Shown: piece after piece, positions 1-33,919 of the stretch | Numbering within the stretch: position 1 is the first letter of the stretch | How the letters are laid out: every line of letters begins with the position of its first letter | The notes under the pieces: model-generated | Seen by the model: only the letters and a program-made list of their open reading frames with translations | Databases searched by the model: none | Told to the model about the DNA's origin: nothing | Assembly (NCBI GenBank): GCA_017404205.1 | Contig: JAFRCV010000002.1 | Coordinates: 114,640-178,639, forward strand | Length of the DNA stretch: 64,000 nt | Origin: Erysipelotrichaceae bacterium | GTDB lineage: Bacteria > Bacillota_I > Bacilli_A > Erysipelotrichales > Erysipelotrichaceae | Direction: 5' to 3' | Made by a program: the position numbers and the translations under genes

Positions 1-1158
1 GCAGCAGGTACCGATATGTTTGGAAGAGATACAGCTGATAAATCTTTTGGCAAAGAAAAGGGAACAATGGAACACGCCAAGGCAAAAGTTGATGCAGGAT
101 TCGAATTCATGCAAAAACTTGGTATTAAATATTTTTGTTTCCATGATGTTGATATTGTGCCTGAAGCCGATGATATCAACGAAACAAATAGAAGATTAGA
201 TGAAATAAGTGATTATATTTTAGAAAAGATGAAAGGCACAGATATCAAGTGCCTATGGGGAACCGCAAATATGTTCTCTAATCCACGTTTTATGAATGGT
301 GCAGGATCATCAAATAGCGTAGAAGTATATGCATTTGCTGCTGCTCAAATAAAAAAGGCACTTGATTTGACGGTTAAACTAGGTGGAAGAGGCTATGTAT
401 TTTGGGGTGGAAGAGAAGGATATGAAACTCTATTAAATACTGATGTTAAATTTGAACAAGAGAATATTGCGAAATTAATGCACATGGCAGTTGACTATGG
501 TCGAAGCATTGGGTTTAAAGGAGACTTCTATATTGAGCCAAAACCAAAAGAGCCAATGAAACATCAGTATGATTTTGATGCCGCAACTTCTATTGCTTTC
601 TTAAGACAATATGGATTAGATAAAGATTTCAAATTAAACATTGAAGCTAATCATGCAACTTTAGCAGGACATACTTTCCAACACGATTTGCGTATTAGCG
701 CAATTAATGGAATGCTAGGATCAATCGATGCTAACCAAGGAGATATGTTGTTAGGATGGGATACAGATGAATTTCCATTTAATGTTTATGAAGCAACTTT
801 ATGCATGTATGAAGTATTAAAAAATGGTGGTTTGACAGGAGGCTTCAATTTTGATTCTAAAAATAGAAGACCATCTTACACTTATGAAGATATGTTTCAT
901 GCTTATATTTTAGGGATGGATACTTTTGCGTTAGGTTTGATCAAAGCAGCAGAACTAATTGAAGATGGAAGAATAGATAAATTTGTTAAAGAAAAATATT
1001 CTTCATGGAATAGTGAACTTGGGGAAAGAATCAGAGACAATAAGACAAGCCTAGAAGAACTTGCTACTTACGCAAGTGAATTAAAAGCTCCAGAACTTCC
1101 AGGAAGTGGTAGACAAGAATATCTTGAAGCAATAATGAACAATATTTTATTTAAATAA
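1..1158 (+). CDS. xylA: Xylose isomerase, 5'-truncated by the window edge
   Basis: Converts D-xylose to D-xylulose in the cytoplasm. The frame is open from base 1 (AAGTD before the first Met at 16), so the true start lies outside the window; about 385 of the usual ~440 residues are present. Metal and catalytic segments of the family are visible: FCFHDVD (catalytic His and Asp), [10 protein letters not shown] (metal Glu), [18 protein letters not shown] (metal Glu and His) and [16 protein letters not shown] (metal Asp). The C-terminus is complete. It is the first visible gene of a plant-polysaccharide sugar region and is followed by a convergent AraC regulator. Identification is very secure; only the N-terminus is missing. 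Confidence 0.97.
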
Positions 1159-25791: not shown

Positions 25792-27192
25792 ATGCGCAAG
25801 GATAGTAACTTTATCGCAACAAGAAAAGAACATGTTACTTATAATATGTTTTGGTTTGGGCAAAATTTATTATGGGGCTATGCTGGATTTATAGCTACAT
25901 ACCTAACTATGGGGCTTGGCATTGACGCATCAATTGCAGCAGCTGTTATTTTTGCTCCACAAATTTGGGATGCCATTAATGATACATTATTTGGTTATAT
26001 CATTGATAAATTTAGATTTAAGAATGGTCAACAATTTATGCCATGGGTAAAAATAGGCACTTTTGGTATTGGCATTATTTCTATCGTAATGTTTGCCATT
26101 CCAAAAGATCTAGCACATAATTTACAAATTATTTGGTTTATTATTTCATATATTATTTTTGATGCTTTCTATACATTGTTAGATGCACCAGCCTTTGCGA
26201 TGGCAACAGTAATGACTGACAATATTCAAGAACGCACAAGCTTTATTTCTGGAAATAAACTATTCGCAATGCTTGGAGGTATAGTTCCGGTTGTATTGAT
26301 TGGTACTGTAACTGCTAATTTGGGCTGGACTCTTGGATCTATTTTATTTGCTGGTGTTGGATGCTTATTAATGCTTCCGTTTACTTTTGTTGGAAAAGAA
26401 AGAAGAAGACAAAGTGAAGAAGATAAAGAAGAAAAATTCACTTTTAAACAAATGTTTAATTATTTAAAGACAAATAAGTATTTATTAGTTTGTTTAGTTG
26501 TCTTTATTATTTTTGGTATGACAGCTTTTGAATCAATTATGTCTACATATGTTGCGGCTGTATGTTATGGTGATCCAGGCAAACAATTATATCTTGCAGC
26601 TGCAGCAGCCTTACCAGTTATTCTTGTTTCTGTTTTGTTACCAATACTCGCAAAAAAGATTGATAAATTTTATCTATTAATTGGTGGTTTAATATTTTCA
26701 ATTCTTGTGAGTGTAATCGCAATGTTTGTAGGCTATGATAATTTCTTATTATCAGTAATTATTGTCGCATTAAAATGTGTTGGTTTGGCTTCATGGCAAG
26801 TCATCATTTATATGTTGGTTGCTGATACAACAGAATATGGAACATATAAATCTGGAATTAGAGCCACTGGTGTTACTTTCTCTTTACAAACATTTATATC
26901 TAAATTAAGAAATGCTGCCGTAAATTCATTTATGTTATTATGTATTGCTTGGACTGGCTATAATGCTGAAGCAAGTTTACAAACAACAAGCGTTGTCAAT
27001 AAGATGTGGTCAGTATTTATTGTGATACCTGTGATTGGCTATATCATTGGTATAATCGTTTTATTAATATTCTATAAATTAAGAGATAACGATGTTCAAA
27101 TAATGGCAAAATATAATAATAGAGAAATTTCTTATGATGAAGCTAAAGAAGCATTAGCTGTTAAATATGGATTACCTGCTAAAGGAGAATAA
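25792..27192 (+). CDS. GPH-family cation symporter
   Basis: A 466-residue, about 12-helix transporter of the MelB/UidB type. N-terminal marks FAPQIWDAINDTLFGYIIDK and MPWVKIGTFG are the family loop, and VADTTEYGTYKSGIRATG is the conserved segment of the second half. ATG 25792 follows AAAGGAATAACTA. It is followed after one base by the PIG-L deacetylase start, so the two likely handle one substrate, such as an acetylated amino sugar or glycoside. It is only distantly similar to the symporter at 2528. Confidence 0.92.
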   Translation: MRKDSNFIATRKEHVTYNMFWFGQNLLWGYAGFIATYLTMGLGIDASIAAAVIFAPQIWDAINDTLFGYIIDKFRFKNGQQFMPWVKIGTFGIGIISIVMFAIPKDLAHNLQIIWFIISYIIFDAFYTLLDAPAFAMATVMTDNIQERTSFISGNKLFAMLGGIVPVVLIGTVTANLGWTLGSILFAGVGCLLMLPFTFVGKERRRQSEEDKEEKFTFKQMFNYLKTNKYLLVCLVVFIIFGMTAFESIMSTYVAAVCYGDPGKQLYLAAAAALPVILVSVLLPILAKKIDKFYLLIGGLIFSILVSVIAMFVGYDNFLLSVIIVALKCVGLASWQVIIYMLVADTTEYGTYKSGIRATGVTFSLQTFISKLRNAAVNSFMLLCIAWTGYNAEASLQTTSVVNKMWSVFIVIPVIGYIIGIIVLLIFYKLRDNDVQIMAKYNNREISYDEAKEALAVKYGLPAKGE

Positions 27193-27193
27193 A

Positions 27194-27979
27194 ATGCCTA
27201 CATTAAAAGAAATAATAAAAACATATGGCGCAATTCCACCATTAACTTCTTTTAAAAGGCCAATGTTTATTGGTCCTCATCCCGATGATATTGAATATGG
27301 TTGTGGAGGAATAATTTCTAAATATAGTGAACTTGGAATTCCAGTAACTTTTGTGATTGTAACTGATGGTGCAGCTGGAGGAATTGGTGAACCCGAAAGC
27401 ATCAAAGAGATGCGATATGAAGAAAGTAAGAATGCCGCTAGTTTTTTAGGTGTAGAAAATGTTGAGTTTTGTGACCTTGAAGATGGTGGAATATATACTG
27501 TAGAAGATGCCTTAGAAAGAATCGTTCCGTATGTATTAGAATATAAACCAGATATTATTTTTGGGCCTGATTCTAGACTTTTAACTGAATGTCATCCAGA
27601 TCATTTAAAAGTTGGTGAAGCAGTCAGACAACTTACGCAAATTGTTCCTTATAAACAATCACTTATTAGACATGGTATTGATGTTTCAAATTATAATGAT
27701 TTTCCAAACAACATCACCTTGGCTTTATATTTTAGTGATAATCCAAATTATATTGAAGAAATAAGTGAAAAAAATCTTAGAGAAAAGATTAATGCGTTAT
27801 TAATCCATTGTTCCCAAATGAAAGATAGCTCTTCTGAATTATTATTGAATTATTTCAAATTAAAAGCTGTGGCTTTAGGAGAAAAAAACCATACAGCTTT
27901 AGGAGAAGATTATCAAATACTTGTTCCTCTTTGTAGGCATGTTTATAGTGAGGGGGTTCATTATAACGATTGGGAATAA
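27194..27979 (+). CDS. PIG-L family (LmbE-like) zinc deacetylase
   Basis: A 261-residue enzyme expected to remove N-acetyl groups from amino sugars. The metal site is GPHPDDIEYG (His29, Asp31, Asp32), with the third ligand in TECHPDHLKV; TDGAAGGIGEPE follows the first strand as usual. The start at 27194 is chosen because AAAGGAG lies just before it; a longer frame from 27167 would overlap the symporter. The pairing with the symporter suggests uptake and deacetylation of an imported compound. No signal peptide. Confidence 0.92.
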   Translation: MPTLKEIIKTYGAIPPLTSFKRPMFIGPHPDDIEYGCGGIISKYSELGIPVTFVIVTDGAAGGIGEPESIKEMRYEESKNAASFLGVENVEFCDLEDGGIYTVEDALERIVPYVLEYKPDIIFGPDSRLLTECHPDHLKVGEAVRQLTQIVPYKQSLIRHGIDVSNYNDFPNNITLALYFSDNPNYIEEISEKNLREKINALLIHCSQMKDSSSELLLNYFKLKAVALGEKNHTALGEDYQILVPLCRHVYSEGVHYNDWE

Positions 27980-29934: not shown

Positions 29935-30170
29935 TAGAAAAGCTTAGAAGAGAAGAGTAACTTATTTGTAGATTGTAGAGAGTCTTTAAATGGTGAAAAA
30001 AGATATCGAAGAATAAGTGAACATGGTCTTGGAGCTGTTGGCTCGATATGAGGGTCAAACGTAATGCATACGTTATAATGCTAGGATATGTTTGTATCTG
30101 AAGAAGGTGTAGAAATACATAAATTAAGGTGGTAACACGGTCAAGGTCGTCCTTAGGGATGGCTTTTTTT
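29935..30170 (+). ncRNA. T-box leader, probably tRNA-Met-sensing, upstream of metQNI
   Basis: The T-box itself is AGGTGGTAACACGG at 30127-30140, close to the consensus that pairs with uncharged tRNA. A long Stem I region (GTAGAGAGTC near 29975, the AGTGAACATGG loop at 30017-30026) precedes it; ATG at 30023-30025 is the likely Met specifier. The terminator hairpin is AGGTCGTCC / GGATGGCTT at 30144-30165 with a T-run to 30170. A TATAAT at 29923-29928 is a suitable -10. The methionine transporter genes behind it support Met specificity. Confidence 0.9.
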
Positions 30171-30213: not shown

Positions 30214-31089
30214 ATGAAAAAGATTATTACATTATTAGTTGCTTTATTAACATTACTTACTCTTGTCTCTTGTTCTAATGGATCAAGCGATGAAGAAAAC
30301 ATTTATAACCCACATGGTTATGAAATCGTAGCTATAGAAGCTGGCCAATTGCCATTAACATTACCTGATGTTGACGCTGCTGTTATTAATGGCAACTATG
30401 CTTTAGAAGCTAAATTGAATGAAACAAATCCAGCAATTGAGATTGAAGCATTCAATTGGGAAACAAGCGTTAAAAGAACTAATTATTTAGCTGTTAAAGG
30501 CGGCAATGAAGAAAGCGATAAGACTAAAGCTTTAGTTGCTGCAATCACAAGTGAGGAAGTAGAAAAGTACATTAACGATACATATCAAGGTGCAGTTATT
30601 GCCTCATTCATTGATGCAGATGGAAAAGATATTGCCTCAGCTGAAATTCCTGAAGCAAAAGATGACAACGTAATAAAAGTAGGTGCTACTTTAGTTCCAC
30701 ATGCTGAAATTTTAAAGAATGTTGTAGCTGATATATTAGCTTTAAAAGGATGGAAACTTGAAGTAATTGAATTTAATGATTATGTTCTTCCAAATACAAC
30801 TTTAAATGAAGGTGAAATTGATGCTAACTACTTCCAAACTTTAGGTTATTTAAAAAACCAAAATGAAGAAGGTGGCCTAGACTTAGTTGCAGCTGTTGGT
30901 GTTCATATTGAACCAATGGGTTTATATTCTAAGAAGATTAATTCTTTAAGTGAGTTAAAAGATGGCGCTTCAATTGCCGTTCCAAATGATACTGATAATT
31001 ATGCACGTGCAATTGATTTATTAAATGCTTTAGGTCTTTTAAACAATGCACCTAGTGATGTAGAATCTATCACTAAAATAAATAAATAA
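30214..31089 (+). CDS. metQ: Methionine-binding lipoprotein MetQ, circularly permuted
   Basis: Substrate-binding lipoprotein of the methionine ABC importer, 291 residues, signal peptide with lipobox LVSC (Cys20). Its segment order is reversed. Residues 31-131 (YEIVAIEAGQLPLTLPDVDA, AAVINGNYALEA, TYQGAVIASF) are what is normally the C-terminal half. Residues 152-291 (NVIKVGATLVPHAEILKNV, FNDYVLPNTTLNEGEIDANY, HIEPMGLYSKKINSL, GASIAVPNDTDNYARAI) are what is normally the N-terminal half. The old ends are joined by a ~20-residue acidic linker, and the new ends fall at one point (ESITKINK to NPHGYEIV). All family segments are kept, so it is probably functional. ATG follows AAAGGGG. Confidence 0.93.
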   Translation: MKKIITLLVALLTLLTLVSCSNGSSDEENIYNPHGYEIVAIEAGQLPLTLPDVDAAVINGNYALEAKLNETNPAIEIEAFNWETSVKRTNYLAVKGGNEESDKTKALVAAITSEEVEKYINDTYQGAVIASFIDADGKDIASAEIPEAKDDNVIKVGATLVPHAEILKNVVADILALKGWKLEVIEFNDYVLPNTTLNEGEIDANYFQTLGYLKNQNEEGGLDLVAAVGVHIEPMGLYSKKINSLSELKDGASIAVPNDTDNYARAIDLLNALGLLNNAPSDVESITKINK

Positions 31090-31090
31090 A

Positions 31091-32056
31091 ATGATAGAAC
31101 TTATACATGTAAAAAAAGAATTTGATAATTTAGAAGTTCTTAGCGATATTTCAATAACTATCAATGATCATGAAATATATGGAATTATAGGCCAATCGGG
31201 TGCTGGCAAATCAACATTACTTCGTTGTATTAATGGCCTAGTTAGTTATGATTCTGGAGAAATACGTGTTGGTGGGGAACTTGTAGATATTAAAGATAAA
31301 AAGAAATTAAGTCTTCTTCAAAAAAGAATGGGCATGATATTTCAAAACTTTAATCTTCTTAATCGATTGGATGTTTATGATAATGTTGCCTTACCAATGA
31401 AGTTTTGGGGAATAGACACAAAGAGTCCTGAAGCTATAAAAAAAATAAAAAATTTAATTGAGCTTGTAGGACTTAGTGATAAAATGCATTCTTTACCTAG
31501 AGAATTATCTGGTGGTCAAAAACAAAGAGTAGCCATCGCAAGAGCTTTGGTACTTGATCCAGAAATTCTTTTATGTGATGAAGCAACTTCAGCTTTAGAT
31601 CCATCTATCACAAGAGAAATTCTTAGCTTACTTCAAAAAATAAATAAAGAAATGGGTATCACAATCATTGTGGTAACTCATCAAATGGAAGTAGTTAAAC
31701 AGATATGTGAAAGAGTTTCTTTTCTTAAAGATGGAAGAGTCTTAGCTGAAGGCAAACCTGAAGAATTATTTATCAAACCAATTAAGGAAGTTAAGCAATT
31801 CCTACAAGAAGAAAGTGGACATTTACCAAGTGATGGTGTAAATATTCAATTATTCTTTACTGATGAAAGTTCAGATGAACCAGTAATCACAAAGATGGCT
31901 AGAGATTTAAACATTGACTATAGTATCTGTTGGGGAAAACTTGAAGACTTTAGGTCAAATGTCTTTGGTTCACTTGTGATTAATGTTAAAAACGAAGATC
32001 AAGATAATATTTGTCGTTATCTTGATGACAAGAAAGTTTTATGGGAGGTTTTATAA
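31091..32056 (+). CDS. metN: Methionine import ATP-binding protein
   Basis: ATPase of the methionine ABC transporter, 321 residues. Walker A GQSGAGKST (34-42), Q-loop FQNFNLL, signature LSGGQ (139-143), Walker B ILLCDE (159-164), and switch His in VTHQMEVV. The C-terminal ~75 residues (INVKNEDQDNICRYLDDKK) form the NIL regulatory domain that binds methionine and inhibits transport. It begins one base after metQ, and the metI ATG follows its stop by one base, so the three are one operon under the T-box. Confidence 0.97.
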   Translation: MIELIHVKKEFDNLEVLSDISITINDHEIYGIIGQSGAGKSTLLRCINGLVSYDSGEIRVGGELVDIKDKKKLSLLQKRMGMIFQNFNLLNRLDVYDNVALPMKFWGIDTKSPEAIKKIKNLIELVGLSDKMHSLPRELSGGQKQRVAIARALVLDPEILLCDEATSALDPSITREILSLLQKINKEMGITIIVVTHQMEVVKQICERVSFLKDGRVLAEGKPEELFIKPIKEVKQFLQEESGHLPSDGVNIQLFFTDESSDEPVITKMARDLNIDYSICWGKLEDFRSNVFGSLVINVKNEDQDNICRYLDDKKVLWEVL

Positions 32057-32057
32057 G

Positions 32058-32693
32058 ATGTGGGAAACAATTATAAATGCTGCAGGACAAACTTTCTATA
32101 TGGTGTTTTGGTCAACTTTATTATCAGTAATCATCGGTTTTGTTCCTGCTGTTATCTTAACATTAACTGCTAATGATGGATTAAGACCAAATAAAGTTGT
32201 TTATGAAATATTAAGTTTTATTGTGAATGTCTTTAGGTCATTTCCGTTTATTATTTTGTTGATAATAATCATTCCTTTTACAAGATTTGTGGCAGGCAAG
32301 TCAATTGGCACAACGGCAGCCATTGTTCCGTTAACGGTGTCAGCAATTCCCTATATTGCCCGAATATTTGAAACATCTTTAAGGGAAACAGATAAAGGTG
32401 TTATTGAAGCAGCTAAATCATTTGGTGCTTCTGACTTTCAAATAATATTTAGAGTATATATTAAAGAAAGTATTCCAAGGATGTTAAATGGTGTTGTCTT
32501 GCTAATAATAAGTCTAATTGGTTATTCAGCAATGGCTGGAACTGTTGGCGGGGGAGGACTAGGAGATATTGCGATAAGATATGGTTATCAACGTTATAAT
32601 ACAGAATATCTTGTGATATGTTCATTAATCCTAATTGTCTTTGTCCAATTAATCCAAATGTTAGGAAACCATTTATATAAAAGATTATCATGA
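32058..32693 (+). CDS. metI: Methionine ABC transporter permease
   Basis: Inner-membrane permease of 211 residues with about five helices. The EAA loop that docks to MetN is VIEAAKSFGASDFQIIF. NVFRSFPFIILLIIIIPFTR and AGTVGGGGLGDIAIRYGYQR are MetI hallmarks. The start at 32058 is chosen for the GGGAGG ribosome binding site at 32043-32048; a longer frame from 31983 would overlap metN by 74 bases. A terminator and then the metK riboswitch follow. Confidence 0.96.
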   Translation: MWETIINAAGQTFYMVFWSTLLSVIIGFVPAVILTLTANDGLRPNKVVYEILSFIVNVFRSFPFIILLIIIIPFTRFVAGKSIGTTAAIVPLTVSAIPYIARIFETSLRETDKGVIEAAKSFGASDFQIIFRVYIKESIPRMLNGVVLLIISLIGYSAMAGTVGGGGLGDIAIRYGYQRYNTEYLVICSLILIVFVQLIQMLGNHLYKRLS

Positions 32694-32717: not shown

Positions 32718-32754
32718 ATTGAAGTCTATATTGTTAAGTGTTATTATATTTTTG

Positions 32755-32883
32755 TCCATATAGAGAAGACGGAGAGACAAGCTCAATGAAGTCTCAGCAA
32801 CCTAACTATAGTAAAGGTGCTAATGCTTGAACGATGGGTTATATGTAACTACTCGTATCTCATCGTATGGATGAGATTTTTTT
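32755..32883 (+). ncRNA. SAM-I (S-box) riboswitch upstream of metK
   Basis: The aptamer core is present: AGACGGAGAGACAAGC, ATGAAGTCTCAGCAACC and AAAGGTGCTAATGCTTGAA match the conserved S-box words. P1 is formed by CATATA (32757-32762) and TATATG (about 32839-32844). The expression platform is a terminator, ATCTCATC / GATGAGAT (32857-32877), with a T-run. With SAM bound, metK transcription should stop. This control is separate from the T-box on metQNI. Confidence 0.95.
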
Positions 32884-32896
32884 AAGGAGGAAATAG

Positions 32897-33919
32897 ATGA
32901 AACTTTATAGTAATGAAATCGTATTTAGAGGGCATCCAGATAAAGTTTGTGACCAAATTTCAGCGGCAATTTTAGATGAATGTTTAAGACAAGACAAAAG
33001 TAGCCGTTGCGGGATTGAAACACTAGGTGGAAAAGGAGAAATCTTTATCACTGGGGAAATAACTAGCAACGCAGTTTTGGATGTTGAAAACATCGCAAAA
33101 AGAGTTTTAAAAGATATTGGTTATTCTGCTGATTATAAAATTATTAACAACATTGGTAAACAATCACTTGATATTGCGCTTGGCACAAACGATGAAGTAT
33201 CTGGTGCAGGAGATCAAGGCATGATGTTTGGCTATGCTTGTGCTGATACAAAAGAATATCTTCCAAAAGCGATGGTTATTCTTCAAAGACTTGCGAAAGA
33301 ATATGATAAGCTTGTTCAAAAGCATGAAGATTTTTATGCTGATGGCAAAGCACAAATTACAGGTCTTTATGATGATGATTTTAATTTAATCAAAATTAAA
33401 TATTTTACCATCTCTTACAACAATGCTGAAAAAGATCGTGAAAGAACAGATGCAATTATTAAAAAGATTGCCAAAGATATTTGTGATGAATATCATGTTG
33501 AGATTGAAGAATTCTTAATTAATCCAACAGGCAAATTCTTAATTGGTGGCTTTGAAGGAGATGCAGGCCTTACAGGAAGAAAGATTGTTGTTGATGCATA
33601 TCAATCATTTGCCAATGTAGGTGGTGGTTGTATGAATGGCAAAGATCCAAGCAAGGTTGATTTATCTGGTGCTTATATCGCAAGACAATTCGCTAAAGAA
33701 GTATTAGATAAAGAAAATCTTAGATGGTGTGAAGTACAAATAAGTTATGCAATTGGATTAAGAAGACCACTTGCAATATATATTGATTCAGATAAAGGCA
33801 ATCTAGAGCCAAGTGAAGATATGTATTTAAGAGCTGAACCAAAAAATATAATTGATTCTTTAAAGATGAAAGAAATCAATTATGAAAAACAAGCAATGTT
33901 TGGTCACTTCTATGATTAA
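32897..33919 (+). CDS. metK: S-adenosylmethionine synthase, short divergent form
   Basis: Makes SAM from methionine and ATP. Family segments: RGHPDKVCDQISAAILDE, GAGDQGMMFGYACAD, FLINPTGKFLIGGFEGDAG with LTGRKIVVDAY, and GGGCMNGKDPSKVD (usually GGGAFSGKDPTKVD). At 340 residues it is clearly shorter than the usual 380-400: the central segment and the C-terminus after GHF are reduced, and the normal SESVSEGHPDK is NEIVFRGHPDK. The catalytic His, Lys and Asp residues appear to be kept. ATG follows AAGGAGG, directly behind the SAM-I riboswitch, which supports function. It converges on the nucleoside kinase with a one-base gap. Confidence 0.94.
   Translation: MKLYSNEIVFRGHPDKVCDQISAAILDECLRQDKSSRCGIETLGGKGEIFITGEITSNAVLDVENIAKRVLKDIGYSADYKIINNIGKQSLDIALGTNDEVSGAGDQGMMFGYACADTKEYLPKAMVILQRLAKEYDKLVQKHEDFYADGKAQITGLYDDDFNLIKIKYFTISYNNAEKDRERTDAIIKKIAKDICDEYHVEIEEFLINPTGKFLIGGFEGDAGLTGRKIVVDAYQSFANVGGGCMNGKDPSKVDLSGAYIARQFAKEVLDKENLRWCEVQISYAIGLRRPLAIYIDSDKGNLEPSEDMYLRAEPKNIIDSLKMKEINYEKQAMFGHFYD

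Follow-up and report, generated by a model that had tools for sequence, protein, structure and literature searches.

Organisation of the metQ locus

The window analysed here, a 64,000-nucleotide stretch of DNA from an Erysipelotrichaceae bacterium, contains on its plus strand a T-box leader followed by the genes metQ, metN and metI, and the MetQ lipoprotein that it encodes has its two parts in swapped order. The T-box leader (29936..30157) was identified with Rfam model RF00230 (113.5 bits against a cut-off of 93, E-value 2.6e-24), and its likely specifier is the methionine codon AUG in ..GAACAUGGUC... The metQ open reading frame (ORF; 30214-31089) encodes 291 amino acids and reads as in an earlier prediction made for this DNA (hereafter the original prediction). 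It is followed by metN (31091..32056), the ATP-binding subunit with a NIL domain (PF00005, 123.8 bits; PF09383, 65.4 bits), and by metI (32058..32693), the permease (PF00528, 84.4 bits), whose ATG at 32058 lies in the frame of a longer mechanically called ORF. The T-box and the downstream metN and metI had all been named in the original prediction. A single metQ was detected in the genome, which is 99.7% complete.

We compared the window MetQ with solved structures, with Pfam and with close relatives. Its sole Pfam family (E-values up to 0.001) is PF03180, which scores 231.7 bits (cut-off 27). The match falls in two stretches, and the stronger one aligns profile positions 1-123 (of 236) with residues 154-277. 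A phmmer search of PDB matched 22 distinct MetQ-type sequences. Chain residues 7-134 of 4ib2 align with residues 148-276 of the window protein and chain residues 151-249 with residues 31-129, and the segments are swapped in the same way against 4k3f and 4qhq (the three best alignments, taken at residue level); the other 19 sequences, each listed with a single stretch, are consistent with the swap. The normal-order relative P0069 is 70% and 73% identical to the window MetQ over its two parts. With segments S1 (N-terminal part), S2 and S3 (C-terminal part) defined on normal-order relatives, the usual order S1-S2-S3 is absent from the window MetQ, which has S3-S1-S2 instead.

The protein begins with a signal peptide (residues 1-20; 30214..30273) whose lipobox, LVSC, ends at Cys20, a residue invariant in 47 aligned proteins of the permuted lineage to which the window protein belongs (clade A, below). 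A short N-terminal tether follows (residues 21-30; 30274..30303), with a predicted local distance difference test score (pLDDT) below 50 at residues 17-25 of the structure model. Segment S3, the normal C-terminal part, occupies residues 31-131 (30304..30606), corresponding to chain residues 151-249 of 4ib2 and residues 169-268 of P0069. Segment S1, the normal N-terminal part and lobe 1, lies at residues 152-249 (30667..30960), as placed by the Pfam alignment and a segment model match, and S2, the first beta-alpha part of lobe 2, is now C-terminal (residues 250-291 and the stop codon; 30961..31089; segment model match at 250-286) and contains the ligand residue Arg265.

Between S3 and S1 lies a linker (residues 132-151; 30607..30666) with seven acidic and two basic residues, matching the acidic linker of about 20 residues that had been proposed to join the old ends. 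It consists of an old C-terminal tail (IDADGKDI, within SFIDADGK..; P0069 has SFVDAKGNPVK) and an old N-terminal tail from after the lipobox cysteine (KDDN, within ..DDNVIKVG; compare EDDKVIKVG), as judged from the tails of the normal-order proteins P0069, P0072 and P0079, with a few new residues between the two. Linker residues G137, A148 and D151 are invariant in the 47 clade A proteins. The new ends, ..ITKINK and NPHGYEIV, lie near each other in the normal protein, and P0069 places them at one point, where ..LNKDAEK is directly followed by NPHGFEIT... Both breakpoints and the assignment of residues 31-131 to the usual end and 152-291 to the usual start of MetQ are therefore as originally predicted. 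Both homologous segments are retained and swapped relative to a close relative, as in a natural circular permutant, and on the evidence of these alignments the window gene is a MetQ/NlpA lipoprotein by descent and belongs to a permuted subgroup by topology.

Inheritance and conservation of the permuted order

Homologues of the window protein were retrieved from 5.8 billion proteins. Among the best 120 of 5617 homologues passing the E-value threshold, 67 are permuted (including the window protein and two truncated sequences) and 53 have the normal order, which excludes chance as the source of the permuted order. The S3-S1-S2 order is found in 65 of these listed proteins, the window's included, which are 61-100% identical to the window MetQ; most permuted homologues matched over 89-100% of the length. 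The source names of near relatives include Solobacterium sp. and Erysipelotrichaceae bacterium, which point to Erysipelotrichaceae. The same order occurs in 23 of the 272 genomes of the family, in genera g1, g7 and g44, each with a single one-piece match. Clade A as a whole has inherited this order and lies within the normal-order MetQs. Its loci have the order metQ-metN-metI in 24 of 27 entries (four of which are repeats of the same genes), and the other three have no partner within the fetched stretch.

The draft assembly that contains the window has 23 contigs, and the permuted gene could in principle reflect two metQ copies or two strains that were collapsed or joined during assembly, a kind of join that 41 two-copy proteins in our homologue lists (see below) show may occur. 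The exact window protein, however, is present on 43 contigs, and relatives down to 61% identity share its junctions. A sister permuted lineage is also present in named-strain records that are not labelled as metagenome-assembled genomes (MAGs), with permuted genes in Faecalibacterium prausnitzii APC923/61-1 (contig cov_118.203) and Slackia faecicanis DSM 17537. Judging from these assembled contigs, an assembly accident is a very unlikely cause of the window order, and we give it almost no weight.

Seven ligand residues have been described in Neisseria MetQ (R156, N213, N238, Y81, F98, H100 and Y103; PMC6739813, excerpts). By motif mapping these correspond to R265, N61, N90, Y190, F207, T209 and Y212 of the window MetQ, so that six of the seven are kept and the histidine is replaced by Thr209. 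Y190, F207, Y212, R265 and N90 are invariant in all 47 clade A proteins and N61 in 46 of them (one has His), and the threonine at the histidine position is also found in 53 of 53 normal-order relatives among the matches listed. The Y-F, F-Y and Y-R spacings (17, 5 and 53) are identical to those in Neisseria. The N-N spacing differs (29 against 25), which may be explained by a four-residue gap in the 4k3f alignment.

Clade A metQ is under purifying selection, with a median ratio of non-synonymous to synonymous substitution rates (dN/dS) of 0.12 for S3 and 0.14 for S1 and S2 together, computed from the 141 pairs, of 253 in all, whose dS lay between 0 and 2 for each part. We found no point in favour of a decaying or non-functional gene, which these ratios, the open frame, the invariant ligand residues, the intact operon with its T-box and the presence of only one metQ copy in the genome make highly improbable.

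The whole protein was also modelled with confidence. The best of five models, whose pLDDT spans 76.5 to 88.0, has a pLDDT of 88 and a predicted template modelling score (pTM) of 0.79, and from residue 31 onward its 10-residue blocks score 85-98 with one exception at 78. Foldseek and VIA-align matched the model to MetQ chains over one segment, both aligners keeping sequence order, which limits how far they bear on the whole fold.

Further permuted lineages and the number of origins

The window protein also retrieved one-piece matches at approximately 40% and at 32-35% identity, which represent two further permuted types. In these lineages, clades B and C, the order is S2-S3-S1 and the cut lies before IAIPNDTTNEARA, close to where lobe 2 starts and approximately 40 residues earlier than in clade A. 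They resemble clade A in encoding a permuted MetQ with a lipobox and in having metN and metI, but differ from it in the earlier cut and, in clade C, in the operon order metN-metI-metQ. In total, permuted order was found in more than 250 related proteins, in three lineages and with two cut points. No chain with permuted order was seen in PDB, in the stretches listed for the 22 MetQ-type sequences, and 11 pattern matches on viral contigs contained no relative.

Clade B is present in 9 of the 272 family genomes. In a contig scan, 68 of the 80 loci kept belong to clade B and the other 12 have the normal order; one of the 68 (L168) has an extra 6-bit S2 match that we took as noise. Its records are titled Oscillospiraceae, Lachnospiraceae, Clostridia, Treponema and others and are mostly MAGs, but include the strains F. 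prausnitzii APC923/61-1, Oscillibacter sp. ER4 and S. faecicanis DSM 17537. Clade C is present in 14 of the 272 family genomes, four of which also hold a normal-order metQ. In a sample of the phylum, 100 of 392 genomes match the clade B protein, and one-piece, permuted-looking matches beyond the window's genome and G240 were found in G514, confirmed as permuted at L091, and in G485, judged from the shape of its match. T-boxes above the cut-off were found at two of nine clade B loci tested (L069 and L137) and at one of two clade C loci (L062). A clade B model built from 21 sequences reached a pLDDT of 88.4 and a pTM of 0.80, with one of the five models at only 53.7. We considered whether clade B has lost a hinge strand and, on inspection by eye, dropped the idea, as the C-terminal stretch GIYGGKQTSLDAI seems to retain the crossing.

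To place these lineages, we carried out a phylogenetic analysis with the segments arranged in one common order (89 sequences, 242 columns). Clade A forms a single branch (support 100/99), and the proteins within which it nests have the normal order and come from the same family. The main part of clade B (15 sequences) forms a branch with support of 99/93, from which Fournierella and Slackia are separate (88/75), and clade C falls on a branch with full support (100/100) that includes one normal-order gene from genome G231. Approximately unbiased (AU) tests rejected single clades of A with B (p = 5.8e-10), A with C (p = 3.8e-11) and B with C (p = 3.3e-86), which suggests that the permuted order likely arose independently at least three times. 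The test of all of clade B as one clade was borderline (p = 0.033), and clade C alone without the G231 gene was not rejected (p = 0.064). A fourth origin, in which Fournierella and Slackia would not share that of clade B, is weakly suggested, and we are unsure of any count above three.

A single ancient permutation followed by reversions could also be invoked for all permuted MetQs, since clades B and C share a breakpoint and a normal-order gene nests within clade C. The AU tests nevertheless reject each pair of lineages as one clade, the clade A breakpoint differs, and the 22 solved MetQ-type sequences show the normal order in the stretches listed for them, so we consider this scenario unlikely.

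In trees of single segments, which have few columns, clade A is one branch for S1 (87) and for S3 (92), and clades B and C are not single branches. The recovery of clade A in the whole, S1 and S3 trees indicates common ancestry of both halves. This bears on the idea that two metQ paralogues each contributed one half of the window gene, which would then be a fusion and not a permuted single gene. The family does contain metQ in tandem and as paralogues (genomes G013 and G057), yet the S1 and S3 trees each nest clade A in normal-order MetQs of the same kind, and both parts are approximately 70% identical to the same normal proteins, which leaves a paralogue fusion quite improbable.

Several members of these lineages merit separate mention. 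The normal-order metQ of G231 (contig C161, L116 / L053), nested in permuted clade C, is possibly a reversion to the normal order or the product of a second permutation. The permuted MetQ of the actinobacterial S. faecicanis DSM 17537 (L193:3399-4283) lies in a metN-metI-metQ operon, unlike most of clade B, and possibly reflects a further independent event or a transfer. The permuted MetQ of F. prausnitzii (L182:3351-4280) starts with what we take by eye to be a twin-arginine-like lipoprotein signal (MITRRDFLKVTG..), and the gene after this operon is presumably metY-like, likewise judged by eye. At L095, L199 and L204, normal-order MetQ segments lie in open frames of 506-684 residues and are possibly fused to the permease.

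Route of origin

The permuted gene probably originated by tandem duplication followed by partial loss. By this route, metQ would first have been duplicated in tandem and in frame, the end of copy one would have been fused to the start of copy two after its lipobox, and copy one would then have lost its front and copy two its back. This route is supported by a linker derived from both old tails and by the presence of tandem metQ genes in a relative. In genome G013, metN-metI is preceded by a tandem pair of normal-order metQ genes with 85.8% identity (L065:4686-6996). The metQ of this genome shares a 24-row group of the tree with the window MetQ and falls in a group adjoining the one that contains clade A. 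The duplication and loss that the original prediction had proposed thus gained support from the linker and the tandem pair, while no clean natural fusion intermediate was shown. A permuted metQ of clade C is present in G013 as well, within an operon of the order metN-metI-metQ (L061).

The homologue lists contain 41 proteins of 380-455 amino acids with pieces of two copies, in shapes that permutation intermediates would be expected to have, 24 in the order S2-S3-S1-S2-S3, 16 in the order S1-S2-S3-S1 and one (P0146) in the order S2-S3-S3-S1; a second apparent S2-S3-S3-S1 entry, P0297, is one S3 match split in two. Thirty-nine of them are among P0126-P0190, and the others are P0275 and P0324 from the clade C list. 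All but one of the 41 clusters are on a single contig (P0145 is on two). Some clusters represent several members (93 for P0139), which speaks somewhat against a pure artefact. Within one two-copy protein of the clade B list, the S3 or S1 copies are 42-68% identical to each other, with the exception of P0146, whose internal repeat is 99% identical; the short pieces of P0190 share 65% identity over 31 residues. Among the S2-S3-S1-S2-S3 proteins, S1 is closer to permuted proteins in its first part (median 82%) than in the rest (62.5%; 17 of 22 had the motif), and in the S1-S2-S3-S1 set the first S1 is less like permuted proteins (60%) than S3 is (79%; 16 of 16). It is near conserved motifs that a permuted-like piece gives way to one with less resemblance. 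These proteins are best explained as assembly chimeras that combine permuted and normal genes, real fusions being less probable, and we did not use them as evidence of evolutionary intermediates.

Predicted function and relation to known permuted proteins

We consider it very probable that the metQ of the window specifies a circular permutant in which the C-terminal part precedes the linker and the N-terminal part, with a predicted ordinary two-lobed fold feeding MetNI and an origin by duplication, and the original interpretation is supported overall. MetQ binds methionine between its two lobes; the permuted protein would do so by the usual Venus-flytrap closure and would dock on MetNI, and methionine import is expected to be retained. 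With the cut inside lobe 2, lobe 1 would become one continuous stretch and lobe 2 would be split and tethered, so that the lipid tether likely moves from lobe 1 to lobe 2. This change in lobe-membrane geometry is inferred from the segment assignment together with the known lobe of each ligand residue. Excerpts of a study of Neisseria and E. coli indicate that the lipid anchor matters for the interaction of MetQ with MetNI (PMC8416018).

Solved MetQ/NlpA proteins (PF03180; 4ib2, 4k3f, 4yah and 6cva) share with the window protein the family, the lipobox, six of seven ligand residues and the metN-metI partners, but in the listed stretches they have the N-terminal part before the C-terminal part. 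Permuted binding proteins are already known as a kind. The nearest precedent is TpMglB-2 (Tp0684), for which a 'Cluster Bc' was proposed. It is described as a sugar-binding protein with a tether that, although permuted, has kept its ligand binding and its change of shape; its relatives are mostly from treponemes and from Gram-positive species, many of which are gut commensals, and its authors raise an anchoring role (PMC4990184). It resembles the window MetQ in being a naturally permuted, tethered and bilobed binding protein that serves an ATP-binding cassette (ABC) importer, but it has a type I sugar-binding fold with reordered N-lobe strands and an added hinge crossing, and its permuted part is 13% identical to the E. 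coli protein. The window protein, in contrast, is of the MetQ type, shares approximately 70% identity with its normal-order neighbours, represents a permutation that likely recurred, and has no Pfam match to the type I sugar-binding family. The glycine-betaine binding proteins 2b4l, 1r9l and 1sw1 are, in excerpts of another report, mutual circular permutants detected structurally at less than 24% identity (PMC2395249). They likewise represent a permutation inside a substrate-binding protein fold, and 2b4l aligns over 29..278 of the predicted window model. They differ from the window MetQ in ligand family, and the window MetQ has no Pfam match to their OpuAC family (PF04069).

Among the titles and opening abstract lines listed in our searches of the open-access literature (PMC), none described a permuted MetQ/NlpA. 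The finding is larger than the original prediction, as the permutation is likely convergent and widespread. In the precedents, as far as the excerpts show, permuted binding proteins have diverged widely in sequence from the normal ones, which makes route and consequence hard to trace. Permuted and normal MetQs, in contrast, are approximately 70% identical, have common operon partners and often a T-box, and the permuted order likely arose by repeated events at two cut points. Such close pairs, together with the named strains, make two questions testable: how permutation passes through working intermediates, and whether the tether position of a lipoprotein affects ABC import. Linear domain annotation hides this topology, as permuted and normal proteins alike match PF03180 and, where they have names, are often called MetQ/NlpA. 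MetQ tolerates permutation and may be selected for it. We would only tentatively suggest, as a rather doubtful extension, that MetQ is a hot spot of convergent permutation, with at least three and perhaps five events in Bacillota and neighbouring groups, with cuts within lobe 2 or close to its start, each selected for a shift of the tether from lobe 1 to lobe 2 that would alter opening on, or docking with, MetNI.

Neighbouring features

Downstream of metI on the plus strand lies a S-adenosylmethionine (SAM) riboswitch (32753-32840; RF00162, 56.2 bits), which precedes an ORF (32897-33919) that appears metK-like by eye. Methionine uptake and SAM synthesis would therefore be adjacent under different RNA switches. 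Upstream of the metQ region, the product of a plus-strand ORF (27167-27979) resembles, by its GPHPDDIEYGCGG motif, a PIG-L type deacetylase.
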